NCBI RefSeq assembly: GCF_020781835.1
Contig: NZ_JAJGNJ010000001.1
Location: 124,001-188,000 of the forward strand
DNA length: 64,000 nt
Source: Microbacterium testaceum
GTDB taxonomy: Bacteria > Actinomycetota > Actinomycetes > Actinomycetales > Microbacteriaceae
Direction of reading: 5' to 3'
In this document: positions 6,428-21,584 of the stretch, piece by piece
Layout of the letters: every line of letters begins with the position of its first letter
Numbering within the stretch: the stretch's first letter is position 1
Translations under genes and position numbers: made by a program
Notes under the pieces: model-generated
The model's database searches: none
Seen by the model: only the letters and a program-made list of their open reading frames with translations
Told to the model about the DNA's origin: nothing

Positions 6428-6476
6428 GAGAGGGTCTTTCTTCTCGGGGGATGGAGGGGAAGGCCGGGGGCCACGG

Positions 6477-7226: not shown

Positions 7227-8011
7227 TTCAGCGCTCCCGCCGCGAGGCCGCGCTCGAACGAGCGCTGCAGGAGAAGGTAGGCCGCGATCACCGGCACGGC
7301 CGTGATCACCGCCGCTGCGAGCACACCGGTCTGGTCGTTGGTGTACTGGCTCATGAAGAACGTGGGCAACAGCGTCACCACCTGCTTGCTCGGATCGTTG
7401 AGCATGAGCAGAGGCAGCAGGTAGGCGTTCCAGCTGTTGATGAGGGTCAGCACCACGATGGCACCGGCGATCGGACGGGTGAGCGGGAGCACGATGTGCC
7501 AGAACACGCGGACGACGTTGGCCCCGTCGATGCGCCCCGCCTCCATGAGCTCGTTCGGGATGCCGTTGAAGAAGCTCCGGGCCAGAAGCACGGTGAAGGG
7601 CACCTGCAGGGCCGCCAGCGGCAGGATCACCGCGATGAGTTCGTTGTACATGTCGAAGGTCGACGCCGTGACGAACAACGGTGTCAGCAGCACCGCCTCG
7701 GGCATCGTCAGCGCAACCAGCAGCAGCCAGAACCAGATCTCCTTGCCCGCGATGCGCAGCTTGGCGAAACCGAAGGCCGCCAGCATCGTGCACACGTAGA
7801 CCAGCGCGATCGTGGAGGCCGCGATGATGATGCTGTTCGCGAAGTACGTGTGGACGATTCCGGTGGCGAACACCTTGGCGTAGTTGCCCAGGCCCTGCCC
7901 GGCGAGCGAGCCCTGCACCATCGCGATCAGAGGGAACAGATACGGCAGGACGATGAGCGTCGCCAGGATTTGCAGGCCCCACCGTGAGGCGCGGGAACGG
8001 ACGTCGAACAC
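7223..8011 (-). CDS. Sugar ABC transporter permease (MalG type)
   Basis: Inner-membrane permease, 262 aa, with about six hydrophobic segments. The ATPase-contact loop is recognisable as ELMEAGRIDGANVVRVFWHI near residue 170, typical of the second permease of CUT1 sugar importers. The GTG start at 8011 lies 2 nt after the stop of the partner permease, with GAGGAG of that gene serving as the ribosome site. No ATPase gene is visible; CUT1 systems in actinobacteria often share one MsiK-like ATPase encoded elsewhere. Confidence 0.9.
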   Translation of the reverse strand: MFDVRSRASRWGLQILATLIVLPYLFPLIAMVQGSLAGQGLGNYAKVFATGIVHTYFANSIIIAASTIALVYVCTMLAAFGFAKLRIAGKEIWFWLLLVALTMPEAVLLTPLFVTASTFDMYNELIAVILPLAALQVPFTVLLARSFFNGIPNELMEAGRIDGANVVRVFWHIVLPLTRPIAGAIVVLTLINSWNAYLLPLLMLNDPSKQVVTLLPTFFMSQYTNDQTGVLAAAVITAVPVIAAYLLLQRSFERGLAAGALK

Positions 8012-8013
8012 GG

Positions 8014-8964
8014 TCAGCTCCTCTCGGACTGTCGATTGATCCGGTTCATCAGCAGTCCCGCCCCGATCGCCAGCACGAGCAGGGCGACCGAGATCGCGGC
8101 GGCGTAGCCGAAGTGCTTCTCCTGGACCATGGTTTGGAAGATGTAGGTGCCGAGGAACTCGGTGGCGTGGTTGGGTCCGGCCCGCGTCACGAGGTACGGC
8201 ACGTCGAAGGTCTTCAGCGCGCCGATCACACCGAGCACGGCGAGGGCGACAGCGGTGCCGCGGCACATCGGCCAGACGATCGACCAGAGGGTGCGGACGT
8301 TCCCCGAACCGTCGACGCGCGCCGCCTCGAGGATCTCGGGCTCGATCTGGCTCATCGCGGCGTAGAAGAGGATGAACGTCAGCCCCGTCCACTGCCAGAT
8401 GGTCACGAGCATGACCACGACCATCGCCGTGACGTTGCCGGCCAACCACGGCTGCGTGAGCGACCCCAGTCCGATCGTCGACAGGATGCCGTTGAACGAG
8501 CCGTTCGCGTCGAAGATCAGGCGGAAGACCGGGGCCATCGTCGCCGGAGCCAGGACGGTGGGGATGAAGATGATGACCTTGTACACCGGCGCGAGGTGGA
8601 TGCGCGAGTGCATGATCGCCGCGAAGACGAAGCCGATCACCGTCTGGGCGGTGAACGTGACGACGAAGAAGATCGCGGTGTGCCCGATGGCCCGCCAGAA
8701 GATCGGGTCGGCGAACATCGCGACGTAGTTGTCCCCGCCGACGGCTTCCGACGGGCTGAGGATGAAGCCGTTCCAGTCGAGCGTCGAGACGTAGCCGGTG
8801 TACCCGATGGAGAAGTAGATCATTCCGACGACCAGCGCGAGCGCCGGCAGGATCCAGGCGAGGCCGCCGGGGTACGGGGACCTCTGCCCGGCGCGGCGCG
8901 GAACGCGCCCCGGGCTGCGTCGTGACCGCCCCGCGGTCACGACGGTTTCGGTGAGAGTGCTCAT
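8014..8964 (-). CDS. Sugar ABC transporter permease (MalF type)
   Basis: Membrane permease of 316 aa. An N-terminal cytoplasmic arm rich in Arg and Ser (about 35 residues) is followed by six predicted helices. The EAA loop reads EILEAARVDGSGNVRTLW near residue 220. It forms a heterodimer with the downstream permease to import a carbohydrate. The ATG at 8964 has AAGGAAGAG upstream. It follows the binding-protein gene, from which it is separated by a stable hairpin that probably lowers permease expression relative to the binding protein. Confidence 0.91.
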   Translation of the reverse strand: MSTLTETVVTAGRSRRSPGRVPRRAGQRSPYPGGLAWILPALALVVGMIYFSIGYTGYVSTLDWNGFILSPSEAVGGDNYVAMFADPIFWRAIGHTAIFFVVTFTAQTVIGFVFAAIMHSRIHLAPVYKVIIFIPTVLAPATMAPVFRLIFDANGSFNGILSTIGLGSLTQPWLAGNVTAMVVVMLVTIWQWTGLTFILFYAAMSQIEPEILEAARVDGSGNVRTLWSIVWPMCRGTAVALAVLGVIGALKTFDVPYLVTRAGPNHATEFLGTYIFQTMVQEKHFGYAAAISVALLVLAIGAGLLMNRINRQSERS

Positions 8965-8990
8965 GTGCTCTTCCTTGAGTCGGGCAGGGT

Positions 8991-9024
8991 CCTTCGTGGG
9001 CGGGACAGGTCCCGCCCACGAAGG
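8991..9024 (-). promoter_or_regulatory. Stem-loop between binding-protein and permease genes
   Basis: Perfect 15-bp inverted repeat with a 4-nt loop, lying 15 nt after the binding-protein stop and 27 nt before the permease start. It has no U-tract. Such hairpins commonly protect the binding-protein mRNA or partly terminate transcription, so that binding protein exceeds permease. Confidence 0.7.
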
Positions 9025-9038
9025 GATGCGGCGCTGGG

Positions 9039-10403
9039 CTACTGCGCGTCCACGACGGACTGCAGGCCCGCCAGGGCGTCGTCGATGGTGACGTCGCCGG
9101 TGGCGACGCCGATGAGGGCGTCGCGGAAGGCGCTGTTGAGATCGGCGGACACCGTGGCGAACCGCGGCTGCGTCGACGAGGCCGCGACCTCGGTGTACTG
9201 CTGCAGCGCTTCGAGCTGGACCTCCGGGTTCACCAGGTCGATCTCGTCCCACTGCGGCTGGATGCCCAGCAGCGACGGGATGTCGTTGAGCGTGTTGGCG
9301 ACCGTCTGCTGGCCCGCCTCGGTTGTGGTGAGCCACGTGACAAAGGTCTTGGCCGCGGCCTGCTGGTCGGACTGAGCGCTGATCGCCAGGCCGTAGTCGG
9401 CATCCCCGAACATGTTGTCGGTCTCCCCGGTGCCGGCGACGTCGGGAAACGGGATCGGGATCATCGTGAACGGCTCGGGGTTGGAGACGCCGGCCGCCTC
9501 CATCGCGCCGATCATCGTGTCACGGACGGTGTACTGCGTGTACCAGGTGCCCATCATGACCATCGCGTACTGGCCGGACATGAACGCATTGCTGGCGTCG
9601 GGATACTGCTGAAGCCCGACGGCGCCGTCCTGCATGATTCCGTCGTCGAACAGCGACTTCCAGATCTCCATGCCCTCGACGAACGCCGGATCGGTGTAGG
9701 AGCGCTCGCCGAGCGAGGCCTCGACGTAGGCGCCGGGCTCGACGTTCTCCATGATCGCCTCGAAGGTGTCCATGTCGAACGCCCACTGTCCCGCGCCCTG
9801 CACGAAGCAGCCCTGGCCCGCGGCCTGGAATGCGGCGCAGACCTGCTTCCACTCCTCCAGGGTCGTCGGGGGCGTCAGGCCCTGGGCGTCGAACATGTCC
9901 TTGTTGATCCAGAGGCTGCCCGAGTAGACCGAGCCCGCCGAGAGCCCGACGACCTTGTCGTCGACGACGAGGCCTTCGACCCCGGATGCCGACAGCTTGT
10001 CGCGCCAATCGGCACCGAGCGCCTCCTCGACGACGGGGGCCAGGTCAATCGCTCCGGCCTGGAAGGTCACGACGCCGCCATTGGCCGAGCCCGGGGCCAC
10101 GTTGAAGATGTCGGGCCCGTCCGCGGAAGTGATGGCGGGTCCCATCACAGAGTCGTAGTTGTCGATCGGCTTCGAGACGAACTCGACCGTGATGTCGGGG
10201 TACTCCTCGTTGAACGCGGCGATCAGCTGGTCGGCGACGGGCTTGTCCGGCGTCCACCCCCACCACACGAGGTCACCCTCGGTTGCGGAGCCGGAGTCGT
10301 CGCCTCCCGATCCGCCTCCCGAGCAGGCGACGAGCGACAGCAGGGTGACTCCTGCGACCGCCGTCGCGCCGAGGCGGCGCCAGGACGATGTCTTCTTTGA
10401 CAT
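9039..10403 (-). CDS. ABC transporter sugar-binding lipoprotein
   Basis: Family 1 extracellular solute-binding protein of 454 aa. The N-terminus is a lipoprotein signal: basic MSKKTSSWRR, a hydrophobic stretch, then the lipobox LVAC with Cys27 and a Gly/Ser/Asp-rich linker. The mature part has the WWGWTPDK and FVSKPIDNYD segments typical of CUT1 binding proteins. First gene of the operon; together with GH10 and the sugar-acid genes it likely captures xylo-oligosaccharides. Expression is probably controlled by the divergent LacI repressor. Confidence 0.92.
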   Translation of the reverse strand: MSKKTSSWRRLGATAVAGVTLLSLVACSGGGSGGDDSGSATEGDLVWWGWTPDKPVADQLIAAFNEEYPDITVEFVSKPIDNYDSVMGPAITSADGPDIFNVAPGSANGGVVTFQAGAIDLAPVVEEALGADWRDKLSASGVEGLVVDDKVVGLSAGSVYSGSLWINKDMFDAQGLTPPTTLEEWKQVCAAFQAAGQGCFVQGAGQWAFDMDTFEAIMENVEPGAYVEASLGERSYTDPAFVEGMEIWKSLFDDGIMQDGAVGLQQYPDASNAFMSGQYAMVMMGTWYTQYTVRDTMIGAMEAAGVSNPEPFTMIPIPFPDVAGTGETDNMFGDADYGLAISAQSDQQAAAKTFVTWLTTTEAGQQTVANTLNDIPSLLGIQPQWDEIDLVNPEVQLEALQQYTEVAASSTQPRFATVSADLNSAFRDALIGVATGDVTIDDALAGLQSVVDAQ

Positions 10404-10578
10404 GGATTTTCTCCTCTTGTGCTGCAGGGAAGCTCGATCGAGTCGGCCGATCGCGCGTTTTGCATCGCAAGTTTTAGCGAGACTGAAAACAACTTGTTAC
10501 GCAACTTGCGTATTGGTTATAGTAGATCCGCCGCCGTCCGCGGTCAAGAGGTCCGGCAGTCGGCAAAGGAGGAGGCCC
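10404..10578. promoter_or_regulatory. Divergent promoter with LacI-type operators
   Basis: A 175-nt region between the importer operon and its regulator. For the regulator (+) a -35 TTGTTA (10494-10499) and -10 TATAGT (10518-10523) are 18 nt apart. A perfect 7-bp-arm palindrome, TACGCAACTTGCGTA (10498-10512), lies between them. A second, shorter palindrome TTGCATCGCAA is at 10460-10470, with further CAAGTT/AACTTG words between. Two operator sites flanking a divergent promoter fit looping repression and autoregulation by the LacI protein. The leftward promoter could not be assigned. Confidence 0.7.
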
Positions 10579-11586
10579 ATGTCGCAGCGCACCGCCACGC
10601 TCGCGGAGATCGCCCGCGTCGCCGGCGTATCCGTGCCGACGGTCTCCCGCGTTCTCAATGGACGCCCGGGGATCTCCGCGCCGAAGCGCGAGGAGATCGA
10701 GAGACTTCTGGAGGAACGCGGGTACGAGCGACGCAAGGCGCGTCGCGAAACTTCTCTGCTCGATTTCGTGATCGTGAGCCTGGAGACGCAGTGGGCGACG
10801 GAGCTTCTGCGGGGAGCGCAAGCCGAGGCCGCACGCGCCGGGGCCGACCTCGTCGTCACCGCCACCGAGGGGTCACCGGCGGGCTCACCCGAGTGGCTGC
10901 AGCGGGTCGCGGGGCGCGGAACCGACGGGATCGTCATCGTCGTCTCCGAGATCGACCCCGTGGGTCGTGACGAGCTCGCCCGACTGAACGTGCCGGTGGT
11001 GCTGGTGGACCCCGTGGGTACCGACACCGAGTCGTTCGTGACGGTGTCGGCCGCCGACTGGTCGGGAGCACGGGATGCCACCGACCACCTGCTCGATCTC
11101 GGACACACCCGGATCGGTTTCGTCACCGGGCCGTTGAACCTCGAATGCCACCAGGATCGACTCGACGGCTACATGTCCGCGCTCGGACGCCGTGGCATCA
11201 CCCCCGATCCGTCCCTCGTGCAGGTCGGCGACTCGCTCATCTCCGGCGGCATCACGTTCGGCGGAAAGCTCCTCGACGCCGCTGAGCGGCCCACCGCGAT
11301 CATCAGCGGCTCGGACGAGCAGGCCTACGGCATTTACCTGGCGGCGCGCGAACGGGGGCTGAGTGTGCCCGAGGATCTTTCCGTCGTCGGCTTCGACGAC
11401 GTCGACCTGTGCCGCTGGGTGAACCCGCAGCTCACCACCGTCCATCAGCCGCTGGCCGGCATGGCATCCGAAGCGGCCCGCCTGGCTCTGGCCATGTCGC
11501 GCGGTGAGACGATCGCCCACCGACGCGTGCAGCTGTCGGCCGAGCTCGTCGTCCGCGAGTCGACGGCGCCGCCGCGGGCCGTGTAG
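10579..11586 (+). CDS. LacI-family transcriptional regulator of the pentose/xylan operon
   Basis: 335 aa. The N-terminal helix-turn-helix (TLAEIARVAGVSVPTVSRVL, residues 6-25) with the hinge helix is followed by a periplasmic-binding-protein-like sensor domain ending in VVRESTAPP. Start ATG at 10579, behind AAAGGAGG. Divergent from the importer operon; palindromes in the shared promoter make it the likely repressor, relieved by a sugar or sugar acid. Upstream in-frame codons (from 10159) have no start signal and belong to the opposite gene's shadow. Confidence 0.92.
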   Translation: MSQRTATLAEIARVAGVSVPTVSRVLNGRPGISAPKREEIERLLEERGYERRKARRETSLLDFVIVSLETQWATELLRGAQAEAARAGADLVVTATEGSPAGSPEWLQRVAGRGTDGIVIVVSEIDPVGRDELARLNVPVVLVDPVGTDTESFVTVSAADWSGARDATDHLLDLGHTRIGFVTGPLNLECHQDRLDGYMSALGRRGITPDPSLVQVGDSLISGGITFGGKLLDAAERPTAIISGSDEQAYGIYLAARERGLSVPEDLSVVGFDDVDLCRWVNPQLTTVHQPLAGMASEAARLALAMSRGETIAHRRVQLSAELVVRESTAPPRAV

Positions 11587-11612
11587 CCGCCGCCGGCTCA
11601 CGACAAACGACG

Positions 11613-11637
11613 AAAGCCCCGGCGAACCGGGGCTTTT
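11613..11637 (+). terminator. Intrinsic terminator after lacI
   Basis: GC-rich hairpin AGCCCCGG-cgaa-CCGGGGCT followed by TTT, 26 nt after the regulator's stop and directly before the left attachment repeat. Confidence 0.85.
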
Positions 11638-11668
11638 CGTGGCGGAGACGGAGGGATTTGAACCCTCG
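11638..11668. repeat. Left attachment repeat (att, duplicated tRNA-Ser 3' end)
   Basis: 31 nt identical to 21554-21584. It matches only the 3' part of tRNA-Ser(GCT): CCA end, acceptor strand and T-arm. No 5' half follows (sequence diverges at 11669), so it is an insertion scar, not a tRNA gene. Confidence 0.93.
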
Positions 11669-11819
11669 CTTGGATCGTTGACTGCCGCGCGTTCAGGTCA
11701 GAAGCCCCGTGATTACGTGGGTCGTGAATCAGGAAGACCGCTCCCCAATTTGGGTTGTGGGCAAAATTTGTTGCTGGTTTGTTGTCACGGACGTAATCCG
11801 TCACCAAATGCCGGCAATA

Positions 11820-11836
11820 CCCCCCCCCCCCCCCCC
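11820..11836. repeat. Run of 17 consecutive cytosines
   Basis: Homopolymer directly downstream of the excisionase-like gene (its stop ends at 11851), followed by GGCCCGGGGGCGG. The rest of the 182-nt stretch 11669-11850 holds no gene. It contains the inner arm of the attachment site, with short inverted words (AATTTG/CAAAATTT, CACGGA/TCCGT) that could be integrase arm sites. Length is prone to slippage in vivo and to assembly error. Confidence 0.85.
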
Positions 11837-11850
11837 GGCCCGGGGGCGGC

Positions 11851-12090
11851 TCAGTCCGTGATGCGCTTTGCCTGGCGCGACCGTTGTGATTGCGCAAACG
11901 GCTCTGGCGGTCGAGTTAGGTGGTCGAGGACAGCGGAGGTGAGGAACCGCCACTCGCCCCCTACCTTGAAGCCGGGAATGTCGCCGGCTCGCGCGAGACG
12001 GTAGATGGTGTCCGGCGACTTTCGCAGCAGTCTCGCGATGTCGGCAACAGTCACCGCGGTCTCATCTATGCAGTTCTGTGTCCTGGTCAT
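11851..12090 (-). CDS. Excisionase-like helix-turn-helix protein
   Basis: 79 aa, HTH_17/MerR-like DNA-binding fold: VTVADIARLLRKSPDTIYRL (residues 12-31) as helix-turn-helix, then the wing GFKVGGEWRFLTSAVLDHL. Proteins of this size and type next to an att site commonly serve as recombination directionality factors (Xis). The ATG at 12090 gives a normal length; upstream in-frame codons run into the divergent promoter. A GAAAGT box 6 nt upstream suggests a leaderless start. Role inferred from family and position at the left end. Confidence 0.78.
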   Translation of the reverse strand: MTRTQNCIDETAVTVADIARLLRKSPDTIYRLARAGDIPGFKVGGEWRFLTSAVLDHLTRPPEPFAQSQRSRQAKRITD

Positions 12091-12238
12091 CCGGCTACTT
12101 TCGCGCGTGCCCGGGCGTGGATCAAGGGCCATGCGGTCTAGCACCTGATCTGCATCGATCACGCACAACATGATCCGCGGTGATAACGCTTCTGATCTGG
12201 TTTTTTCGTGCGTGCCCGGGCGTGCTAGCTTGCCGGGC
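12091..12238. promoter_or_regulatory. Divergent promoter with two identical, symmetric operator sites
   Basis: The 15-mer GCGTGCCCGGGCGTG occurs twice, at 12105-12119 and 12210-12224. Each copy is centred 22 nt upstream of one of the two divergent start codons (12090 and 12239). The core GCCCGGGC is palindromic. On the right, TAGCTT (12226-12231) sits 7 nt before the ATG, so the operator falls in the -10/-35 spacer of a leaderless promoter. TGATC words (TGATCTGCATCGATCA) lie between. This looks like coordinate repression of both genes by one regulator, possibly one of the two gene products. Confidence 0.65.
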
Positions 12239-12439
12239 ATGACTGGAGAAGTGGAAGACCCTTACAAGTGGAAGCGCGGGTTCAGCCGCGAGCAAGCGGC
12301 GGACTACTGCGGGGTGAACTTCTATAAGGTCGCCAACGCGGTGCGAAAGAACGTCCTCCCGGCCGTTCGTAACGGCAGGGACATCATCATCTTCCGCGAG
12401 GATCTGGACGCGTGGATGGAGAGCTGGGAACCGGTCTAG
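12239..12439 (+). CDS. Small helix-turn-helix DNA-binding protein
   Basis: 66 aa: KRGFSREQAADYCGVNFYKV (residues 12-31) forms the helix-turn-helix, followed by a wing with GRDIIIFREDLDAWMESW at the end. This is the AlpA/excisionase-type winged fold. The ATG at 12239 follows TAGCTT and 7 nt, indicating a leaderless transcript. Divergent from the other HTH gene across the symmetric operator pair. It may be the repressor of that region or a second recombination factor. Confidence 0.78.
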   Translation: MTGEVEDPYKWKRGFSREQAADYCGVNFYKVANAVRKNVLPAVRNGRDIIIFREDLDAWMESWEPV

Positions 12440-12667
12440 ACCGGCGCAATGTCTTAGCCGGATCGAACGTTCTGTGGGGCTGTCAACACCCTTGTCCAGC
12501 TCTTCGGGTGGTTCGCTGTGGGTAGAGGGCGATGCCCGAGGGTGTCCTTGGTCGACGAGTTCGCGGCGCGCGAGTGGATATTGGTCGGCGACCGTGCTGG
12601 GCACGCCCACAGGCGCCCACAAAGATCGCACGAACAGTCGGGGGCAGGCTGCGGCTATCCTCGCGTT

Positions 12668-13468
12668 ATGGATCTGGTGGACGACGAAGCGCACCGGGCG
12701 CTCGCCTACATCGATGCCGTCACCAGGTTTGGCTCTCGCTTGAGCGTCCCCGAGCTGCATCGATATCTCGACGGGCCAAATCGACGACGGGGCGGAACCC
12801 CGATCGCGATGCGGCAGATTCTCGCCACGTTGCTGGAGTCGATCCGTGACGTTCATTTGGAGACCACTCCCGGCGAAAGCGCTGCTGACTTCCTAAAGCG
12901 GGTCGGATGGGTGTCGGTATCGGACGGAGAGGCAGTCACGTTGACTGGGCTCGGACGCGCCATGCTCGCGCACGCTGAGCGGCCCCCTTCGGTGACGGCA
13001 AGCGACAATCCCATGGTCGTGCAAATCGATCCAGAAGATCCTGTTGCCTACGTTCGCGTGTTCGAACTGATGTCTACCCATGGCCCGGGCATGCTCATCG
13101 ACCCATACTTGGATTTCGAGCGCCTGGCCGACCTAGCGGAAATCTCCGAAGTAACGCGCGTGTTGACTTCAGACCGGACAGAACGCAAACGGCTCGAGCA
13201 CCTTCGTCGCATCCTTCCTGAGGTTCCCAGCATTGCCATTCGCGTCGCGGGGAAGTCCGCCCTTCACGACCGCTTTTTCATGCCTGACCAGGGCCCAGTT
13301 TTTGTGTTGGGCTCGAGCCTGAACTCAATATCGAAGCGCCCGGGGGTGATCACTCCGGTAGCCGACGCTCTCGCTTCAGGTGCAATGCGCAATGAGTACG
13401 AAGAGCTTTGGAAGCAGGCCGAACCGCTTGAGCCGCAAGGACCTACCGGAGAAAAGCCTGAGCCCTGA
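12668..13468 (+). CDS. Winged-helix / phospholipase-D-like domain protein, putative defence protein
   Basis: 266 aa, with visibly lower G+C than the flanks. Residues about 10-110 look like a winged-helix module. Residues about 145-240 carry PLD-like signs: MLIDPYLDFERL, then ALHDRFFM (HDR in place of HxK) and VLGSSLNSISK. Such HDR-type PLD-like domains occur in nuclease or sensor proteins of anti-phage systems; activity here is inferred. The start at 12668 is chosen because TATCCT (12656-12661) stands exactly 6 nt before the ATG (leaderless). It converges with the unknown gene that precedes the Abi_2 gene. Confidence 0.7.
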   Translation: MDLVDDEAHRALAYIDAVTRFGSRLSVPELHRYLDGPNRRRGGTPIAMRQILATLLESIRDVHLETTPGESAADFLKRVGWVSVSDGEAVTLTGLGRAMLAHAERPPSVTASDNPMVVQIDPEDPVAYVRVFELMSTHGPGMLIDPYLDFERLADLAEISEVTRVLTSDRTERKRLEHLRRILPEVPSIAIRVAGKSALHDRFFMPDQGPVFVLGSSLNSISKRPGVITPVADALASGAMRNEYEELWKQAEPLEPQGPTGEKPEP

Positions 13469-13718
13469 AACCCGCGTCAACCCGGACCGGGACGTTACCG
13501 AACCGAACCCACGCCCTCACCTTGCGCGGTAGCCACGGGCCGATGGTTAGCGGCACCTCGTCGAGCCGCAGTTCAGCCTTCGTGAGGAACAGCAATTCGC
13601 CACCCCGCGCGATCGTCTCGAGCGCCCGATCGTTCATGCGCCGATCTACGGCGTCGGCATAACGCCTGTTCGTTCCCACCCTGGCCGGGTATCCCTTCTC
13701 CGGCAATGCTGGCGACAC
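13443..13718 (-). CDS. Conserved-looking hypothetical protein, possibly truncated
   Basis: 91 aa. It has the pattern NRRYADAVDRRMNDRALE, LTKAELRLDEVPLTIGPW, then VRAWVRFGNVPVRVDA. To my reading this resembles a small hypothetical family common in actinobacterial phages and genomic islands, whose members usually continue past the last beta strand. Here the frame ends soon after, and its last 26 nt overlap the PLD-like gene tail to tail, suggesting a 3' truncation by insertion. It sits just downstream of Abi_2 (18 nt gap). Function unknown. Confidence 0.55.
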   Translation of the reverse strand: MSPALPEKGYPARVGTNRRYADAVDRRMNDRALETIARGGELLFLTKAELRLDEVPLTIGPWLPRKVRAWVRFGNVPVRVDAGFRAQAFLR

Positions 13719-13736
13719 GGCGCGGGGGCGCGAGAA

Positions 13737-14702
13737 TCAGGCGACGGCCGCAGAGAGCAGGGGACGCTTGACTCCTCGCTCGTAGAGCGGATCACGACTC
13801 AGCAGGGCGTCCAGATCAGCCAGGAGATGCTTATCTCCTCCGGCTGGGCGCAGAAAAGCAGCCAGGGCTAGCCACGCCACATACATCGACTTCGGCTCGG
13901 CATCGGATGAGACGTTCCTATAGATTTTCGGACGCTTTGGAGATGAGGCGGTCGGTCGCATCCACAACCGGGAATGATGAGCGACGAGATTTCTTGTGAC
14001 GATCACGGAGGTCAGCTGGGTATGAAAGAGGGCATTCGCTACGCCAAAGGCCGAGGCGACCTCCTTCCAAAGCCACCGGTCCGTAGTGCCGTCGTGAACG
14101 GGCGCGGTTTCGGTGATGATGCGCTCGAGGGCACCGAGAGTCCAGCCGTCCACGGCCGCCCAGATGGGCAAGGTTTCCATCGCTGCTAATTGATCAGCTT
14201 TATCCATGTTCTCTGGACTGTCCTGCCAAACCCGCCCGTGAGCGAGTTCGAAAGCCTCGAAGGTCCCACGCACGAACGGTTCACGTGATCTCAGAATCTG
14301 CTCTCGAACAACTTGATGAATTGGACGGGCCTTCGGGTTCATGACCCGGTAGTGCTCAGAGTGGAGGAAGCAGGCGCGTGGCTCATACAGGTCGCAATGA
14401 CGATCAACAAGAGTCGCACGCAGCCGCCACTCCAATGTCCTCAGTGCGGTGAACAATCGAGTCGAGACCTCATGATCGATCTCGACCATCTTGATGACCC
14501 GATCAATCCGGTCGTCGCCATCGATCAGACCTTCACGACGCAACTTGCGGAAGTTTCTCGCGTACCCCAGAAAATAGTGAAAATTCGTCTGGGCGAGAAA
14601 TGACTCGGCCTCACCGCTGAGGGTTTCGTCCTCAATGTAGCCACGGCGGACCAAGTACTCGACCCGCTGTCGTGGGGTCAAGTACGGACGCGCTTCTACC
14701 AT
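13737..14702 (-). CDS. Abi_2-family (AbiD/AbiF-like) abortive infection protein with HEPN motif
   Basis: 321 aa. The N-terminus (YLTPRQRVEYLVRRGYIEDE...ANFHYFLGYARNFR-like) and the central IDRVIKMVEIDHEVSTRLF segment are typical of Abi_2 proteins. The C-terminal RNLVAHHSRLW (about residues 240-250) gives the R-x4-H HEPN ribonuclease motif. In this family it blocks phage growth, presumably by RNA cleavage. G+C is lower than the genome average, consistent with recent transfer. Cargo of the integrative element; faces the PLD-like gene tail to tail with one small gene between. Confidence 0.86.
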   Translation of the reverse strand: MVEARPYLTPRQRVEYLVRRGYIEDETLSGEAESFLAQTNFHYFLGYARNFRKLRREGLIDGDDRIDRVIKMVEIDHEVSTRLFTALRTLEWRLRATLVDRHCDLYEPRACFLHSEHYRVMNPKARPIHQVVREQILRSREPFVRGTFEAFELAHGRVWQDSPENMDKADQLAAMETLPIWAAVDGWTLGALERIITETAPVHDGTTDRWLWKEVASAFGVANALFHTQLTSVIVTRNLVAHHSRLWMRPTASSPKRPKIYRNVSSDAEPKSMYVAWLALAAFLRPAGGDKHLLADLDALLSRDPLYERGVKRPLLSAAVA

Positions 14703-14952
14703 CGAAGTACCTGCCCGGAAATGAAAGGGCCCCCGCAGGGCGCTTCAGTGAGAGGCGGCGGGGGGACTGGTGAAAGTAGTCTACAGGAGACGTCGGACAC
14801 TGGCAAAACCGGCCATCGCACGCGCGTTAGAAATTGCGCCGCCTGGCTACACACGCCTCCCCATGCCCGAATTCTCGTTCCCTCGGCGTTGCGCCTTCCA
14901 CGCACGGAGATCACCAGGCCGCGGGACAGGGGACATACATCTGGCGGGCCGC

Positions 14953-15339
14953 TCAGCTCATCGGATCATTGAGCCGGCTGTGGAACGCGTCGCGGTACTC
15001 CTGGTCTCGCCACGGCCACAGCACCGCCTCCCCGATCGCGACGCGGGCGACGTAGCCGTCCTCGCGGACTATTAGCGTCCACCCATCGGATGAGTCGCTC
15101 TCCTCGGGCGTGAGGTTCCCGTGCAGGTGCGGGGCAGTCGGATCAGTCTCGCTGACGCACCGATACGGGCGGGCCTCAGCCGGCGCCCCCTCGGGGCGGG
15201 TGATCTCGAGTCTCCATGTCGGCCACGATCCCTCGATTACACGGAGATTCGGGGCCTCCCCGGTGGTCGGCACACTGTCGACGTCGACCTCCGCCGCGAA
15301 CGTCGCGCCGCGATACTCGAATTCGTAGCGCTCGGTCAC
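14953..15339 (-). CDS. Hypothetical protein, paralogue of the gene upstream
   Basis: 128 aa from a GTG that overlaps the preceding stop (GTGA). It begins VTERYEFEYRGATFAAEVDV and aligns by eye with the upstream gene (MTDLYRFEYGGAPFSVNIEP). Both then share PNLRVIEG.W.TWRL and a GNLT..ES segment, and both end in a DEE/DQEYRD-type acidic helix. A tandem duplication followed by divergence. No known domain recognised; no signal peptide or membrane segment. The 250 nt from 14703 to 14952 holds no convincing gene, only the Abi_2 upstream region. Confidence 0.72.
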   Translation of the reverse strand: MTERYEFEYRGATFAAEVDVDSVPTTGEAPNLRVIEGSWPTWRLEITRPEGAPAEARPYRCVSETDPTAPHLHGNLTPEESDSSDGWTLIVREDGYVARVAIGEAVLWPWRDQEYRDAFHSRLNDPMS

Positions 15340-15788
15340 GCCGCACCCCCCTGCGATCGGAGCCACGCTTCCCACGTTGCGGTGAGCTGCGTCCACTCCT
15401 CATCGGTGTAGAAGCGGGACACGATGCCCCATCCGCCGCTGATCCGGTACACCTCTCCGCCGTTCACGAAGCCAACACCCGGAATCTCTGCGCCGCCACC
15501 AGGGGCGGGCGCAGCGACCATCATCATGGTCGGGCTGCCAGCGCTCTCGGCCGACGTCAGGTTCCCCGCCGGGTGCTCACCGCCGTCAGCAGCGACCGAG
15601 CGCACCAGGCGGATGCCGGCAAGCCCGGGAACCGATCCGTCCGGGACGCTCAGGTGCCACGTCTTCCACGGGCCCTCCACAACACGCACATTCGGCGGGT
15701 CGGTCGTGGTCGTGTCAGTCGGGCTGGGCGGCTCGATATTCACCGAGAACGGCGCGCCACCGTACTCGAAACGGTAGAGGTCGGTCAC
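15336..15788 (-). CDS. Hypothetical protein, tandem paralogue
   Basis: 150 aa from a GTG at 15788, coupled by overlap to the small gene upstream (stop at 15785) and to its paralogue downstream. Opens with YRFEYGGAPF, followed by a Thr/Pro-rich insertion (residues 22-32), VRVVEGPWKTWHL, a Gly-rich stretch and a C-terminal DEEWTQLTATWEAWL helix. Probably soluble. Function unknown; the repeated coupling suggests that the three products act together. Confidence 0.72.
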   Translation of the reverse strand: MTDLYRFEYGGAPFSVNIEPPSPTDTTTTDPPNVRVVEGPWKTWHLSVPDGSVPGLAGIRLVRSVAADGGEHPAGNLTSAESAGSPTMMMVAAPAPGGGAEIPGVGFVNGGEVYRISGGWGIVSRFYTDEEWTQLTATWEAWLRSQGGAA

Positions 15789-15937
15789 AGCGGGGCCGGT
15801 CCGGGGAGACGTGTGGCGTGGAGGTTGCCGCTGCTGTCCACGTAAAGGCGGTACCCCCCGTTGTTACACAGTGACTTCCAGATAGCTCGGATGTCTGCGT
15901 CCGTGTCGTGGTAGGTGATCTCGGGTGTTTCAGGCAT
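15785..15937 (-). CDS. Small hypothetical protein (50 aa)
   Basis: Encodes MPETPEITYHDTDADIRAIW then a short basic and Gly-rich tail ending LPGPAPL. An ATG at 15946 would add three residues, but AAGGA then lies too close, so 15937 is preferred (about 9 nt spacing). The stop overlaps the GTG start of the next gene (GTGA), strong evidence that it is translated. No family recognised. Confidence 0.68.
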   Translation of the reverse strand: MPETPEITYHDTDADIRAIWKSLCNNGGYRLYVDSSGNLHATRLPGPAPL

Positions 15938-15946
15938 GATGCTCAT

Positions 15947-16132
15947 TCCTTCCGGGTACTGCGAAACGTTTTGAACCTGACTGAGGTCTTTTTCACCTCT
16001 CCGGCGACTCTTTGGAGGAAAAGACGCGTGGGGGTGCCCCCGGGGTCCGGAAAAAAAAGACCGGGGAGGGATATCGGCAATACCCGGAGACCTGGCCTGA
16101 CTCGTGTTGGGGTGACCCCTCCCACCCGCGGA
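15947..16132. other. Hairpin-rich intergenic stretch without a gene
   Basis: 186 nt between two leftward genes. Contains GGGG-TCA-CCCC soon after the stop of the 16133 gene, a run of eight T on the minus strand inside CCGGTC...CCGG, GGGGG/CCCCC and CTCC/GGAG pairings. Likely a terminator or processing region plus leader for the 15.9-kb gene group; no single structure is clearly best. A 65-codon minus-strand frame here has no ribosome site and poor composition. Confidence 0.45.
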
Positions 16133-16903
16133 TCAGCCACGGGATACGACCGAGTACTTGCCGCGAGCGCGATCGTCGATCTCGCGCTGCATGTTCTCTC
16201 GCTCTTCGCGCTCCTGTTCGAGGCGGTCCTTGATGGTTTCAGCGTTTGCGGCGAGATTGATGGTTACGCCCTTGACGATGAGGTCGCTTGGCTTGCGAGC
16301 GTAAGTGGTCTTCTCGTAGGTGTTGAGATCCATGTCGCCCATGCGCAGTCGCCAGGGGATGTCGGGGAGTACGCGGGCGAGGCGCTGCATGGCGATCCAT
16401 CCCTGGTCGATGACGCGAAGTATGCGGTTGCTCTCGATCATGTTGTCGCGTGCGTCGACCGCGACAGCTCCCATGCCGGCGATGCGGGAGAGGTCGTTGA
16501 TGTCTGCGGTTCCGATGATCTTGTGCGCTTCGGTGAGCGTGGCCCCGGCTTCGTCGGCGGCAGCCTTGAAGGCGGCGAGGATGCCGTTGTGATACTTGGG
16601 CAGTAGGTGAATGAGCTTGTTCTCGTGCGCTGTGCTTGCGGCCGAGTCGATGTCCCCTTGGTTGAGGACATTGGCGATTAGGACTCGCAGGATGTCGGGG
16701 TCTTCGATGGGGTCTCGGTCCTCGAGGATTGACGTTGCCCACGAGGCCGCGAGTGCCTGGTAGTTGGTGCTTGTCGCGCGCACTTCGAGGACGGCTTGAT
16801 GGATCTTGTCGGCGTCGTCATTGTGTTTCTGGATTTCGGCGGGGAGCTTGTATCCAGAGGTCTTGATCGCCTCGAAAATTGCGCGCAGGTCGTGGTTTCG
16901 CAT
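16133..16903 (-). CDS. Hypothetical protein with C-terminal coiled coil
   Basis: 256 aa from ATG 16903, preceded by AGGAGA at good spacing. Mostly helical: residues 1-60 and 90-150 are Ala/Lys-rich helices, residues 185-215 include a WRLRMGDMDLNTYEKTTYARKP segment, and the end (about 225-250) is a strongly charged coiled coil (DRLEQEREERENMQREIDD). No signal peptide or membrane span. Not recognised; the shape suits a structural or DNA-associated helper of the element rather than an enzyme. Confidence 0.75.
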   Translation of the reverse strand: MRNHDLRAIFEAIKTSGYKLPAEIQKHNDDADKIHQAVLEVRATSTNYQALAASWATSILEDRDPIEDPDILRVLIANVLNQGDIDSAASTAHENKLIHLLPKYHNGILAAFKAAADEAGATLTEAHKIIGTADINDLSRIAGMGAVAVDARDNMIESNRILRVIDQGWIAMQRLARVLPDIPWRLRMGDMDLNTYEKTTYARKPSDLIVKGVTINLAANAETIKDRLEQEREERENMQREIDDRARGKYSVVSRG

Positions 16904-16919
16904 GGGGGTTGTTCTCCTG

Positions 16920-17069
16920 TCAGTTGCTGGGGCTGTTGAGGGCGCGGAGCCATTCGCGCTTGTCGAGCGGAGTGGTTTCGTCACCTGTGATCGTGTCTTG
17001 GCTGTTGCTGGCGGTGAGGGCTTCGAGAATGGATCTCGAGAACGTGGGCCGACGGCTGTCATCGGTCAT
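16920..17069 (-). CDS. Small hypothetical protein (49 aa)
   Basis: Starts MTDDSRRPTFSRSILEALTA and ends KREWLRALNSPSN. ATG at 17069 behind AAGGAAGA, overlapping the upstream gene's stop (ATGA), with the next gene 16 nt downstream. Acidic/polar, probably soluble; function unknown. Confidence 0.66.
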   Translation of the reverse strand: MTDDSRRPTFSRSILEALTASNSQDTITGDETTPLDKREWLRALNSPSN

Positions 17070-17323
17070 TGGTCTTCCTTTCGTTGGATGCGGATAATTA
17101 CGTGGTCGTGGCGGGCATGAAGTCTGACGTCCCATCCGTCGACTAGCAGCCATGCGATGTCTTGCACGCCCCGATCGGTGAGGTGGCTGGTCTGGTAGTT
17201 CCACTTAGGGCCGTCGTCGGCGATGACGAGGTGCTCGTTTCTGGCCCACGGCGGCGTGGGGAATCCCTTGGACGTGAGGTGCTTGATCGGGGATAGGTTG
17301 CTGATCGCATGCGGATCGGCCAT
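17066..17323 (-). CDS. Hypothetical protein (85 aa)
   Basis: Begins MADPHAISNLSPIKHLTSKG and ends in a strand-rich stretch WDVRLHARHDHVIIRIQRK. ATG at 17323 has GGAGAGGAGG upstream. First protein gene after the tRNA-Arg, 33 nt from it. Resembles a small alpha/beta phage-type accessory protein, but no family is recognised. Confidence 0.72.
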   Translation of the reverse strand: MADPHAISNLSPIKHLTSKGFPTPPWARNEHLVIADDGPKWNYQTSHLTDRGVQDIAWLLVDGWDVRLHARHDHVIIRIQRKEDQ

Positions 17324-17356
17324 GCTGTGTCCTCCTCTCCTGGTAGGGGTGTTGCG

Positions 17357-17429
17357 TCCCCCCGGCAGGACTTGAACCTGCGCGGCGCCGGGTAGAAACC
17401 GGGTGCTCTGTCCACTGAGCTACGGGGGG
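17357..17429 (-). tRNA. tRNA-Arg (anticodon TCT), element-borne
   Basis: 73-nt cloverleaf. Acceptor CCCCCCG/CGGGGGG with A discriminator, D-arm GCTC/GAGC, anticodon loop TTTCTAC, T-arm GCAGG-TTCAAGT-CCTGC. The first anticodon-stem pair is a C-C mismatch (27-43); the other four pairs hold. CCA is not encoded. It reads AGA, a very rare codon in G+C-rich hosts, and lies inside a leftward gene cluster of the element, as in phages. Confidence 0.88.
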
Positions 17430-17436
17430 TCGTTGG

Positions 17437-17703
17437 TTAGGCGGTCGCTTTCTCGCGGGTCTGGCGTGGCGGGTAGGTGCGTCCTCCCCACACGCCGGCC
17501 GGTGGTCTGGCGGTGTCCGCGTAGGCGACACAGGCGGGCTTGATGGGGCAGCGGGAGCAGAACGTGGCCGCGAGCTGTAGCGGTTCGTCCCGTTCAAGGT
17601 CGATCAGGTCCGCGGTGAACCGGTCGTTTCCGCTGCAGGGTGGCTGGGGGTGGTCGAGCAGGGCTGCGGCGAGTTCCCTGTAGCGGTCGTCTGTGCGGGT
17701 CAT
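17437..17703 (-). CDS. WhiB-family iron-sulfur transcription factor
   Basis: 88 aa. The four cluster cysteines are Cys23, Cys49, Cys52 and Cys58 (C...CSRCPIKPAC), followed by the GVWGG turn at residues 70-74 and a basic tail. WhiB-like proteins bind a 4Fe-4S cluster and act with the primary sigma factor; phage versions can down-regulate host WhiB genes. The start overlaps the upstream stop (ATGA). Carried by the element, so likely an element regulator or a modifier of host transcription. Confidence 0.92.
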   Translation of the reverse strand: MTRTDDRYRELAAALLDHPQPPCSGNDRFTADLIDLERDEPLQLAATFCSRCPIKPACVAYADTARPPAGVWGGRTYPPRQTREKATA

Positions 17704-17864
17704 CCGGTCAACTCGTGTTCGTGGATGGGGAGGGTGATGTCGCGCACCTCAGGCCGGAGCGAGTCGAAATAGGCCAGGCGTTCGCGGGCGAATGCGTGGG
17801 GGTCGTTCCAGGCTCGGGAGAGCGCGTCGAAGTTCGCGGGCTTGGGAGCGGGAATCTTGTTCAT
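17700..17864 (-). CDS. Small hypothetical protein (54 aa)
   Basis: Starts MNKIPAPKPANFDALSRAWN and ends DITLPIHEHELTG. The ATG at 17864 overlaps the replication gene's stop, and its own stop overlaps the WhiB start: a chain of ATGA couplings. Function unknown; translation well supported by the couplings. Confidence 0.7.
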   Translation of the reverse strand: MNKIPAPKPANFDALSRAWNDPHAFARERLAYFDSLRPEVRDITLPIHEHELTG

Positions 17865-18529
17865 GAGGCCACGTCCTTTAGTCGCTTGCGGAGTACGGCT
17901 TTCGGGTTCTGTGCGTTCGAGATCGGCTGAGCTGTAACGGCCTTGATCTGCAGGTAGCCGTCCCACGGGTCACCCCGTCCGATGCGATATGCCTCGGGGA
18001 GCAATTCATCTGGGGAGAGGGGTAGGCGTCGTTCTCGGCAGAGGGTGGCCAGGGCGTTGATCGCGTTTGGCTCGTGGATGTGCGCTAGCAAGTTCCCTTC
18101 CCTTCCATTCGTCGCGGGATATCCCGCGAGGTTGCCCGCGAGGTTGCCCGCGAGGTTGCCCGCGAGGTTGGAAGAGTTATCCACAGGGGAGGTCGCGGGA
18201 TATCCCGCGAAGTGGCTATCTCCATTCCCCGCGGGATATCCCGCGAGGTCGGAGACCATGAGTCGCCACCTTGTGACACGTCCGGGCCTGGGCGGTGACT
18301 GCGGTTCGATGAGTCGCTGATCCTGCAACGCGCCCAGAGCATTACGCACGTCGCGCTCTGTCATCCCGCCGACCATGCCCGCGAGAGTCGACACAGAGGG
18401 CCAGGCCACGGCATCCGCGTTCGCGAAAGTGGAGAGCGCCACCAACGCGCGGCCGATCGCGTGCCCACCAATCTGCTTCGTCCCATTCGGGTGTCGGCTG
18501 AGCGCCCACGTCACGAGGTCATCGCGCAT
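17861..18529 (-). CDS. Replication-initiator-like winged-helix protein with the origin inside its gene
   Basis: 222 aa. Residues 1-85 form a helix-turn-helix domain (AWPSVSTLAGMVGGMTERDVRNALGALQ...GRVTRWRL) of the kind seen in phage O-type and plasmid initiators. Residues about 95-140 are low-complexity repeats (LAGYPA, LAGN) that exist because the DNA carries palindromes, 12-bp iterons and a DnaA box. The C-terminal part is helical and basic, and may recruit host replication proteins. ATG at 18529 behind AAAGGGGG. Initiator role is inferred from domain type plus embedded origin. Confidence 0.72.
   Translation of the reverse strand: MRDDLVTWALSRHPNGTKQIGGHAIGRALVALSTFANADAVAWPSVSTLAGMVGGMTERDVRNALGALQDQRLIEPQSPPRPGRVTRWRLMVSDLAGYPAGNGDSHFAGYPATSPVDNSSNLAGNLAGNLAGNLAGYPATNGREGNLLAHIHEPNAINALATLCRERRLPLSPDELLPEAYRIGRGDPWDGYLQIKAVTAQPISNAQNPKAVLRKRLKDVAS
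18113..18245. other. Putative replication origin (palindromes, iterons, DnaA box)
   Basis: Three copies of the perfect 16-bp palindrome CGCGGGATATCCCGCG (18113-18128, 18194-18209, 18230-18245); four perfect tandem copies of CCCGCGAGGTTG (18123-18170); and a consensus DnaA box TTATCCACA (18177-18185) between them. All lie within the coding sequence of the winged-helix protein, as the phage lambda origin lies within gene O. No long A+T-rich unwinding stretch is obvious. Confidence 0.72.
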
Positions 18530-19538: not shown

Positions 19539-19736
19539 TCAGCTCGCGACCGCCGTGCTGGTGCGCTCCGAGGCCTCGAGCCACGCGATGCAGTCGCTCT
19601 CGCGGTAGACGACCGTGCGCGGCGTCGGCTTGAGGAACTTCGGGCCACGGCCGGTGAATCTGAGCTGGGCCAGGTTGGAAACCGTCATGCCCGGAATTAG
19701 CGCCGCAACCTCTTTCGGACTGAGGTACTTCTCCAT
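19539..19736 (-). CDS. AlpA/excisionase-like DNA-binding protein
   Basis: 65 aa: EKYLSPKEVAALIPGMTVSN as helix-turn-helix, then LRFTGRGPKFLKPTPRTVVY and a DCIAWLEASE helix, the classic AlpA/excisionase wing pattern. ATG at 19736 preceded by AAGGGAGA. First gene of the leftward lytic-like operon, divergent from the XRE repressor. Likely an activator or recombination directionality factor. Confidence 0.8.
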   Translation of the reverse strand: MEKYLSPKEVAALIPGMTVSNLAQLRFTGRGPKFLKPTPRTVVYRESDCIAWLEASERTSTAVAS

Positions 19737-19838
19737 CCCGTTCTCCCTTGTGAGTCTCACACCGTTCTGGTGTTGTTGAGAACACTATAAGCGGGTTTAG
19801 TGTGGTCACGCAACCCCGTTCTGGATTAGACTGCAGGC
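19737..19838. promoter_or_regulatory. Divergent promoter/operator of the element's control switch
   Basis: Leftward: -35 TTGCGT (plus strand 19808-19813) and -10 TATAGT (19784-19789), 18 nt apart. Rightward: -10 TAGACT (19827-19832) 6 nt before the repressor ATG. The word CCGTTCTGG occurs twice (19762-19770 and 19816-19824), and GTGTT/AACAC forms an inverted pair, making candidate repressor sites. Arrangement resembles a phage immunity region. Confidence 0.68.
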
Positions 19839-20387
19839 ATGGCCGTACATGACGAAGAGATCGCGCGCAGACTGCGAACCACGCGAGAGAGCCTGGGGCT
19901 TTCACAGGAAGCTCTGGCCGAGCTGATGAGCGTTCGGGGATTTGACTTCCGACAGCAGACGGTCAACAAGATCGAGAACAACCAGCGGCGCCTACTGGCA
20001 TCCGAGCTAGTGGCATTCGCCGACTCGCTCGGCGTGGGGGTCACCGATCTTCTCGGCCTCGGGTCAGACCGCGGACCGATCGTCGTATCAGGCGCTCGCC
20101 TTGAGGAAGCAACGCGCAATCTTCAGCACGCATCTCTGGCGCATGCGCGCGCGATGCTCGGGTTCGCCCTAGCGGCGGATGCCGCAGAAGATCTCCACGC
20201 GAACGACGCGTACTACGCAGACGGACCTCTCATTCAGCAGACTCCCGGGTGGGTCGCGACAGCCGATGTCGTGGGCACTCTGGAAGCGACGATGAAAGCG
20301 AACCGAAGAGAGATCATGGGAGAACGCGCCCAAAGCGTCATGCGCGCACTCAAGGCAGAGCACGAGCACTTCCACTCGGCGGACTAG
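19839..20387 (+). CDS. XRE-family repressor
   Basis: 182 aa. N-terminal Cro/C1 helix-turn-helix (IARRLRTTRESLGLSQEALA, then QQTVNKIENNQRRL; residues 8-55), and a helical C-terminal part with no protease motif. Start supported by TAGACT-6 nt-ATG (leaderless). Divergent from the AlpA-like operon, with the integrase starting immediately after its TAG stop, so repressor and integrase are co-transcribed. Likely keeps the leftward operon silent while the element is integrated. Confidence 0.88.
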   Translation: MAVHDEEIARRLRTTRESLGLSQEALAELMSVRGFDFRQQTVNKIENNQRRLLASELVAFADSLGVGVTDLLGLGSDRGPIVVSGARLEEATRNLQHASLAHARAMLGFALAADAAEDLHANDAYYADGPLIQQTPGWVATADVVGTLEATMKANRREIMGERAQSVMRALKAEHEHFHSAD

Positions 20388-21497
20388 ATGGGCAGCGTCT
20401 ACGCGTACCAGAACGCCGCGGGCAAGAGACTCTGGCGTGCGGTGTGGCGTGACCCGCTGAACCAACAGACCTCTAAACGCGGGTTCAAGACGAAGAGCGA
20501 GGCTGAGGAATACATCGCGCGTCAGACCGTCGCCAAAGCAGACGGAACGTATGTTGCGAGATCCGCTGCTTCTGCGACCGTTGCGGAGCTGAGCGTGGGG
20601 TGGCTGGCGAACAAGCGCGCCCTGCTCAAACCGTCTTCTTACGCGCCCTTGCAAGCGTCCTGGAAGAACTACGTCGAACCGACATGGGGACGCCGCAAGG
20701 TCTCGAGCATCCGATACAGCGAGATCGAAACGTGGGTGGCCGGCATCGGCAAAAGTCCGACTGTCGTCGCTCGGGCATACGGCATCCTCGCTGGGATTCT
20801 CGACGTCGCGGAGAAAGACCGTCGCATCCTGGCGAACCCGGCGCGCGGCGTTCGACTCCCCCGCAAGGTGTCGAGCCGAGCACGGCGATACCTCACCCAC
20901 GATGAGCTGTGGGCTGTTGCCGAGACGTCTGGTCGTCCTGCTCTCGTGCTCACCCTCGGTTACTGCGGTCTCCGGTGGGGCGAGTTGGTAGCGCTGCGCG
21001 TGTCTGACGTGAACTTCCTACGGGGCCGGATCTCGGTCACGCGAAACGTCGTGGAGGTGCACGGCAAGTTTCACCCTGGAACCCCGAAGACCCACGAATC
21101 TCGACAGGTGCCCGTCCCCGCCGCGGTCCTCGCGCACCTGTCCGCCGCGGTCGCGGGAAAGGCTCCCGACGCGCTGATATTCGATGACGGCCACGGCGGC
21201 TATATGCGACGCACGCGGGCGTCCTCGGGATCGCGGTCCTGGTGGGTGTCTGCTCTCGCCACAGCGGGCGTGGAACCTCTCGTGCTGCACGATCTACGGC
21301 ACACCGCGGCGTCACTCGCCGTGTCGGCAGGGGCGAACGTGAAGGCGATTCAGCGGATGCTAGGGCACGCCTCCGCGGCGATGACGTTGGACGTCTACGC
21401 CGATCTGTTCGATGACGACCTAGAGGCACTTTCGGCGCGGCTCGATGAGGCTATTGGGGCGCGGGTTGTTGCTGTTTCGTTGCCAGGCGGGGACTGA
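20388..21497 (+). CDS. int: Tyrosine recombinase (integrase)
   Basis: 369 aa. An N-terminal arm-type DNA-binding domain (RGFKTKSEAEEYIARQ), a SAM-like core-binding domain (residues 60-150), then the catalytic domain. Catalytic residues are seen in GLRWGE (Arg), HDLRHT (His-x-x-Arg), LGHAS (His) and the nucleophile Tyr in MTLDVYADLF. Directs insertion into the adjacent tRNA-Ser(GCT). The ATG directly follows the repressor stop with no gap. Confidence 0.95.
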   Translation: MGSVYAYQNAAGKRLWRAVWRDPLNQQTSKRGFKTKSEAEEYIARQTVAKADGTYVARSAASATVAELSVGWLANKRALLKPSSYAPLQASWKNYVEPTWGRRKVSSIRYSEIETWVAGIGKSPTVVARAYGILAGILDVAEKDRRILANPARGVRLPRKVSSRARRYLTHDELWAVAETSGRPALVLTLGYCGLRWGELVALRVSDVNFLRGRISVTRNVVEVHGKFHPGTPKTHESRQVPVPAAVLAHLSAAVAGKAPDALIFDDGHGGYMRRTRASSGSRSWWVSALATAGVEPLVLHDLRHTAASLAVSAGANVKAIQRMLGHASAAMTLDVYADLFDDDLEALSARLDEAIGARVVAVSLPGGD

Positions 21498-21553: not shown

Positions 21554-21584
21554 CGTGGCGGAGACGGAGGGATTTGAACCCTCG
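21554..21584. repeat. Right attachment repeat (within tRNA-Ser 3' end)
   Basis: 31 nt identical to 11638-11668, covering the CCA end, acceptor strand and T-arm of tRNA-Ser(GCT). Marks the right element boundary. Confidence 0.93.

Follow-up and report, generated by a model that had tools for sequence, protein, structure and literature searches.

An origin of replication that lies inside the gene of its own initiator is already known from lambda O (PMC7466680) and from pSK41 and pPR9 (PMC5703833). The first account describes how ori-lambda and its relatives in Stx phages place the initiator-binding repeats midway along the gene, with a tract that melts after them, and how the number of lambda-type iterons varies (4 or 6), which adds amino acids to the O protein (PMC7466680). 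The second account describes pSK41, a staphylococcal plasmid of the RepA_N type, in which the initiator has an N-terminal DNA-binding domain, a central linker-coding segment that contains the origin, and a C-terminal primase-interaction region. In the pPR9 chimera, a pfam13730 (HTH_36) N-terminal domain and a different origin segment are attached to the pSK41 C-terminal domain (PMC5703833). Among integrated elements, the candidate PICI satellites of Mycobacterium are defined by integration genes together with a major capsid gene, and the portion of the source drawn on here makes no mention of in-gene origins for them (PMC10654092).

The gene described here, rep, lies on a small integrated element in the window, by which we mean the whole 64-kb stretch of DNA that was analysed. 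The main features of the element are as follows.

11638..11668: att repeat at the left end (31-bp exact repeat, empty-site comparison)
13737..14702, minus strand: Abi_2 family gene, probable phage-defence cargo (Pfam Abi_2, 3e-19)
17356..17429, minus strand: element-borne tRNA-Arg(tct)
17437..17703, minus strand: WhiB-like gene near rep (Pfam Whib, 3e-8)
17861..18529, minus strand: rep, initiator-like gene with an embedded putative origin, 222 amino acids (ORF, PHROG profiles)
19539..19760, minus strand: excisionase-like small protein (PHROG 66 excisionase, 2e-5)
19839..20387, plus strand: Cro/CI-type repressor-like gene (HTH_3, 1e-8)
20388..21497, plus strand: tyrosine integrase (Pfam Phage_integrase, 2e-18)
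21554..21584: att repeat at the right end, with 29 of its 31 bases within tRNA-Ser(gct), covering the 3' end of the tRNA gene

As the original prediction had proposed, the element is integrated at a tRNA gene: 31-bp direct repeats at tRNA-Ser(gct) bound 9.9 kb of DNA that carry rep. For the empty-site comparison, a search with the right flank covered 119 genomes of the genus, which is probably Microbacterium to judge by the hosts of the matching phages, and 11 loci were compared with both flanks. Five of these (L089–L093) have an empty-site-like arrangement, in which the 24–33 bases that immediately precede the element on its left abut the tRNA and the right flank, the left match being short. 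In five loci the match to the left of the junction is limited to the tRNA part, and one locus (L084, genome G334) carries a sister element. The sister element at L035 (1606–13665) occupies the same tRNA-Ser(gct) in another genome. There the integrase and the initiator are direct neighbours, and each is missing its N-terminal part, which could reflect a deletion that joined them.

Fourteen ORFs of the element were scanned with Pfam, PHROGs or both, and none was recognised as a gene for conjugation, capsid or terminase. A P-like helicase loader or a primase was likewise not recognised among them, with some neighbours matching no profile. Membership of the AICE class, which is defined by an FtsK-type Tra plus RepSA, RepAM or Prim-Pol (PMC3218068), was rejected because all of these are missing from the 10 ORFs scanned with Pfam. 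The element is PICI-like in being small and integrated at a tRNA gene and in having an integrase, a regulator and a predicted replication gene, rep. It resembles the Mycobacterium candidate PICIs, which are small, carry an integrase, often sit at tRNA genes and have few phage genes (PMC10654092), and it differs from them in that no major capsid gene was recognised.

Several neighbours of rep have counterparts elsewhere. A tRNA-Arg(tct) is found close to the initiator gene in four loci (window 17356–17429, L035 3475, L036 10606 and L043 10650), and WhiB-like relatives lie near rep in L035, L038, L039 and L043. The plus-strand ORF at 12518–13468, a possible defence gene without a Pfam match above cut-off, is 48% identical to a protein of L035. 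Two adjacent, overlapping minus-strand ORFs (14953–15396 and 15336–15788) look alike by eye and have no PHROG match; the former has a 70% relative in L035.

The Rep protein consists of an N-terminal winged-helix type domain, a low-complexity linker and a helical C-terminal domain. Listed in coding order, the features of the gene are the following.

18254..18529, minus strand: N-terminal winged-helix type domain, candidate DNA-binding, residues 1–92 (HTH_36 profile, alignment A1)
18230..18245, CDS 285–300: palindrome 1 in coding order, 16 bp, CGCGGGATATCCCGCG (palindrome scan)
18193..18210, CDS 320–337: palindrome 2, 18 bp, TCGCGGGATATCCCGCGA
18177..18185, plus strand, CDS 345–353: perfect DnaA box TTATCCACA (motif scan)
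18123..18170, plus strand: four exact 12-bp tandem half-site repeats CCCGCGAGGTTG
18112..18129, CDS 401–418: palindrome 3, 18 bp, TCGCGGGATATCCCGCGA, overlapping the first 12-bp repeat
18088..18111, minus strand: GA-rich tract past the last palindrome, candidate unwinding region
17864..18088, minus strand: C-terminal four-helix domain, residues 148–222, candidate recruiter of host replication proteins (AlphaFold)

Matches of the protein to PHROG profiles for replication initiation and O-like proteins are weak (E 2e-5 to 2e-3); those to PHROG 391 (8e-5) and PHROG 678 (0.002) cover the N-terminal part only. In the Pfam scan the sole matches were HTH_36, at 17.1 bits against a cut-off of 25, and RP-C, likewise below cut-off, and the RepA_N domain (PF06970) is absent. 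The relative at L042 matches initiator profiles far more strongly than the window protein does (E 1.5e-13), and HTH_36 is above cut-off in the relatives L041, L042, L046 and L037. The AlphaFold model of the whole protein is poor (mean pLDDT 53), and the N-terminal part averages below 60 in every block of ten, so the fold of this part was assigned from the profile matches. Viral structural matches of the whole-protein model are weak. When folded alone, the C-terminal domain gives a confident four-helix unit (pLDDT 87.6), for which the fold search returned no structural match. Sequence searches against solved structures gave no credible match, profile A2 finding designed repeat proteins over 13–14 residues.

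The DNA signals on which the original prediction was built are all present. The three exact 16-bp palindromes CGCGGGATATCCCGCG start at 18113, 18194 and 18230, and two of the three extend to 18 bp as TCGCGGGATATCCCGCGA. They make up half of the six 16-bp perfect palindromes in the window, and CGCGGGATATCCCGCG has no exact copy elsewhere in the 3,609,452-base genome. The four exact 12-bp iterons CCCGCGAGGTTG lie at 18123, 18135, 18147 and 18159. Seen on the coding strand, this array consists of TCGCGGG half-sites at CDS 365, 377, 389 and 401, spaced by exactly 12 bp, of which the last is the left arm of palindrome 3. The right arm of the palindrome at 18113 shares bases with the first CCCGCGAGGTTG, and the 12-bp unit can accordingly be described as a palindrome half-site plus GTTG. 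An additional TCGCGGG is found at CDS 146, outside the linker. The DnaA box at 18177 is the sole perfect one in the window, and there are 10 in the 3.6-Mb genome. In the protein, the linker segment contains the predicted low-complexity repeats, in the order LAGYPA, FAGYPA, three times LAGN, and LAGYPA. The candidate unwinding tract has an AT content of 44%, compared with 36% for the rep gene, and its purine fraction of 0.75 over 24 nt is weak, being reached by 5.8% of background segments.

With the linker removed from the query protein, a search of 366 genomes from the genus gave matches in 18, the protein's own genome among them. Among the 17 others, 12 (L016–L027, with L026 resembling L025) are proteins with a linker or a linker remnant. 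The matches at L028, L029 and L031 are short HTH proteins that were set aside as comparable initiators because the linker is missing, and those at L030 and L032 contain stops and were left out of the analysis. Profile A1 found the six compared genes plus three weaker ones in the same 366 genomes, and three matches beyond its own genome (E 4e-10 to 7e-9) in 396 genomes of the order. Ten matches of the full-length protein outside its own genome, in 299 genomes of the family, were rejected as relatives because all fall within residues 68–148, which is mainly low-complexity linker. A search of genome contigs found no relative with the window protein or with a query of the N- and C-terminal domains.

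The N-terminal domain is common to the window protein and five relatives (37–52% identity). In the linker of all six genes, inverted repeats occur together with an array of half-sites spaced by 12 bp. The half-site itself varies: TCGCGGG in the window, TGGCGGG in L019 and L022, GCGCGGGG in L018, GGCAGGG in L023 and TGGCGAG in L024. L019 and L022, the two genes with a common half-site, also encode the most similar pair of proteins (61–62%). A distance of 36 bp separates inverted repeats one and two in the window, L018 and L024. The five closest relatives have a purine fraction of 0.79–0.96 past the last repeat, a value reached by 2% to 0.04% of background segments; a purine-rich tract after the last repeat is absent in L017, L020 and L025. 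A perfect DnaA box is present in four of the six genes, each time just ahead of the 12-bp array, and is missing in L018 and L022. The check that had been suggested, whether homologues keep these signals, came out positive in all six genes for the inverted repeats and the array, with different half-sites, and in four of them for the DnaA box. In 314,014 bases covering the window, 12 loci and the Microbacterium phage Megan there are seven perfect DnaA boxes, five of which lie inside initiator linkers; 9 of the 14 initiator genes in these bases have none.

The two ends of the protein occur in different combinations. The window-type C-terminal domain follows different N-terminal parts, distantly related at best, in L017, L020, L021, L025 and the remnant L016, and the window-type N-terminal domain stands before other C-terminal parts in L018, L019, L022 and L024. 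From these sequences we infer that the reader travels with its putative origin, and that the two are combined by exchange with one or another recruiter domain.

Such initiators occur in varied surroundings. L039 (att 6716–17278) and L046 (att 4195–13073) are small tRNA-integrated elements that carry one together with a tail tape-measure protein (851 and 815 amino acids, PHROG 58 E below 1e-65), and are possibly tail-altering satellites. In L042 the initiator lies beside terminase and major head genes, recognised by profile; the same holds for L036 and L040 by similarity to L042, and L038 has such an initiator with a Phage_capsid gene. These four loci resemble capsid-forming satellites or short prophages.

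Two phage genes have a similar organisation. Gp53 of Microbacterium phage Megan (L052 5602–6285), annotated as hypothetical, and an HTH protein of Bifidobacterium phage PMBT6 (L079 2471–3427), annotated as HTH, both contain palindromic repeats in the linker that are read in two frames, and these repeats are likely to be unannotated origins. The tract has a purine fraction of 0.88 in Megan, as it has in L021. The PMBT6 protein matches the N-terminal domain of L042 (43.5%, E 1e-4) and Megan gp53 matches the C-terminal part of L022 (39%, E 6e-6); in the search of phage records neither matched the window protein itself. That search gave no match with the window protein, L017 or a C-terminal domain, and two, one and five matching records with L022, L021 and L042, respectively, including a Pseudomonas phage and an unannotated Bacteriophage sp. 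For BruhMoment gp80 no such repeats were seen by eye, the search match itself falling in gp79. ValentiniPuff gp90 is listed in the gene table with 87 amino acids. Among viral contigs, L042 found two loci, L073 (100% identical) and L074 (35%), and no relative was found with the window protein, L022 or alignment A1. In L074, ACCTGCAA repeats and an AT-rich stretch (8272–8450) lie inside a distant HTH initiator gene. Plasmids gave no match with L042.

Chance as the source of the rep repeats was assessed by permuting synonymous codons within the gene, which leaves the protein and the codon usage unchanged. The palindrome coverage of rep was matched by 1 of 1000 permutations and its repeat coverage by none, and chance was rejected on these grounds. 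The same treatment of 12 initiator genes gave the observed level of palindromes in no more than 32 of 1000 trials for 10 of them, L020 and L027 having no palindromes with 7-bp arms; for repeats the figure was no more than 46 of 1000 in every one of the 12. Under local codon usage, the spelling GCG GGA TAT CCC GCG has a probability of 0.0025 per copy, a value whose assumption of independent copies overstates the case if the copies are duplicates. We also ranked 302 ORFs by the DNA order that exceeds codon permutation (100 permutations each), drawn from the window element, 12 loci, phages Megan and PMBT6, and L074; the near-identical L044 and L045 were counted separately and the initiator of L043 was left out. 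The window rep ranks third. The 15 initiator genes occupy ranks 1–7, 10, 12, 13, 19, 27, 29, 69 and 82, and unrelated ORFs occupy ranks 8, 9 and 11.

It had further been claimed that selection acts on the DNA and not on the protein. The window gene alone cannot separate the two, because its palindromes and array all share one reading frame; the relatives can. In 16 inverted repeats from the six genes, the arms pair at 6.9 of 8 positions, compared with 5.4 when arms from different elements are combined. These repeats were chosen by eye as inverted repeats, so that pairing within them is high by selection and the comparison between genes alone is informative. At three of the eight arm positions exchanges have occurred on both sides, from G-C to C-G or A-T. 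When right arms are assigned to genes in all 720 ways, two assignments fit as well as observed: the correct one and, according to the pairing matrix, that in which L019 and L022, two genes with a common half-site, are exchanged. L024 has its second inverted repeat in one codon phase and its third inverted repeat and array in another, with the result that one and the same DNA specifies different peptides there. Such frame switches are found in 4 of 12 genes tested (L024, L017, L027 and Megan gp53) and in PMBT6, where GGGGTGACACCCATG yields RGDTHV in one frame and GVTPM in another. In the other eight, including that of the window, the repeats keep to one frame almost throughout. Different half-sites, matched changes in both arms and reading in two frames together argue that in the relatives it is the DNA that is kept.

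These results bear on an explanation in which the LAGYPA/LAGN peptide repeats are what is selected and the DNA repeats result from recent tandem duplication. The single frame shared by the window palindromes and array would agree with it, and slippage easily makes 12-bp tandem units. Duplication does not, however, make perfect dyad symmetry, synonymous permutation rarely yields the palindromes and their spelling is improbable, and in some relatives one DNA sequence is used in two frames and the peptides there are different; we consider this explanation barely credible. That the repeats are a pac- or cos-like packaging or helper-phage recognition signal of a phage satellite, lying by chance within rep, is hardly more convincing. 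Some related elements do carry terminase, capsid or tape-measure genes, but in the relatives examined the position of the site is tied to the initiator linker, the half-sites vary between elements, and a DnaA box would be unexpected in a packaging site.

A third possibility is that the repeats form an in-gene operator or partition site and that the protein is a transcriptional regulator or a segregation-type DNA binder. Perfect palindromes are typical of operators and the N-terminal part is of winged-helix type. We regard this idea as unlikely. An origin would better explain the central part of the gene, with its several spaced inverted repeats, 12-bp array and DnaA box; the profile matches are replication initiators, and most perfect DnaA boxes of the compared loci (5 of 7) sit in initiator linkers. 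The reading that we prefer, at a probability of roughly 0.85, is that rep contains an in-gene origin; the N-terminal winged helix of the protein would read it, and the C-terminal domain would recruit replication proteins of the host. The central part of the original prediction, a lambda O-like origin inside its own initiator gene, is well supported by comparison, namely by the inverted repeats and array in six of six genes, the co-changing arms and the frame switches.

Compared with lambda O, the window gene likewise has repeated dyad sites in its middle, to which protein binding is predicted. It differs in combining arrays of half-sites spaced by 12 bp with full palindromes and a DnaA box, in having no equally clear AT-rich tract and no recognised P-like loader, and in its weak similarity to O-like profiles. 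The anatomy of Rep, with a candidate DNA-binding domain, a linker that holds the candidate origin and a C-terminal domain, would fit that of the pSK41 initiator, whereas Rep has no RepA_N domain and belongs to an integrated tRNA element and not to a plasmid. Nor did any link between its C-terminal domain and these plasmids emerge. Module exchange as in pPR9 is also seen here, and HTH_36 fits several relatives, the window protein being below cut-off. The genes of PMBT6 and Megan share the palindromic linker repeats with rep and differ in the repeat sequences.

In-gene origins are reportedly listed in a review of phage replication modules that Weigel and Seitz published in 2006. Among the papers listed in our searches we found no description of the spread of this plan, with exchangeable modules, in actinobacterial satellite-like elements or phages, which is weak evidence of absence since subscription journals were thinly covered. 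The statement that no actinobacterial family with this arrangement had been described has to be qualified by the similar repeats in Megan gp53 and PMBT6, on which the annotation is silent, and by the general plan described for lambdoid phages and for pSK41 and pPR9.

The linker DNA holds inverted repeats, a 12-bp half-site array, a DnaA box in most close relatives, and a purine-rich tract that follows, and their order is kept. A working model based on this anatomy would have the N-terminal domain bind the half-sites: probably dimers would occupy the palindromes and units arranged head to tail the 12-bp array, while host DnaA would bind the DnaA box. The tract beyond the last palindrome would then melt, and the C-terminal domain would recruit the host helicase or primase. 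The integrase and the excisionase-like protein would release the element, which could then replicate, perhaps when a helper phage or damage relieves the repressor. Since a single gene holds both reader and read site, inheritance and exchange would affect the two together.

For phages, the comparison offers a rule for finding origins, which are unannotated in the records examined: to look in the linker of the HTH-type initiator. Compact one-gene replicons of this kind could serve as vectors where hosts have few tools, and the genes form a natural set of reader and site pairs for learning how winged-helix initiators choose DNA. It seems to us somewhat more likely than not that a large and so far unnamed pool of initiators is common to the satellites and phages of actinobacteria. 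In these initiators, a reader and its own origin would form one exchangeable cassette on at least two kinds of C-terminal recruiter. The DNA word would change by co-evolution inside one gene, with a host DnaA box kept in several, and this may give rise to many mutually compatible replicons.
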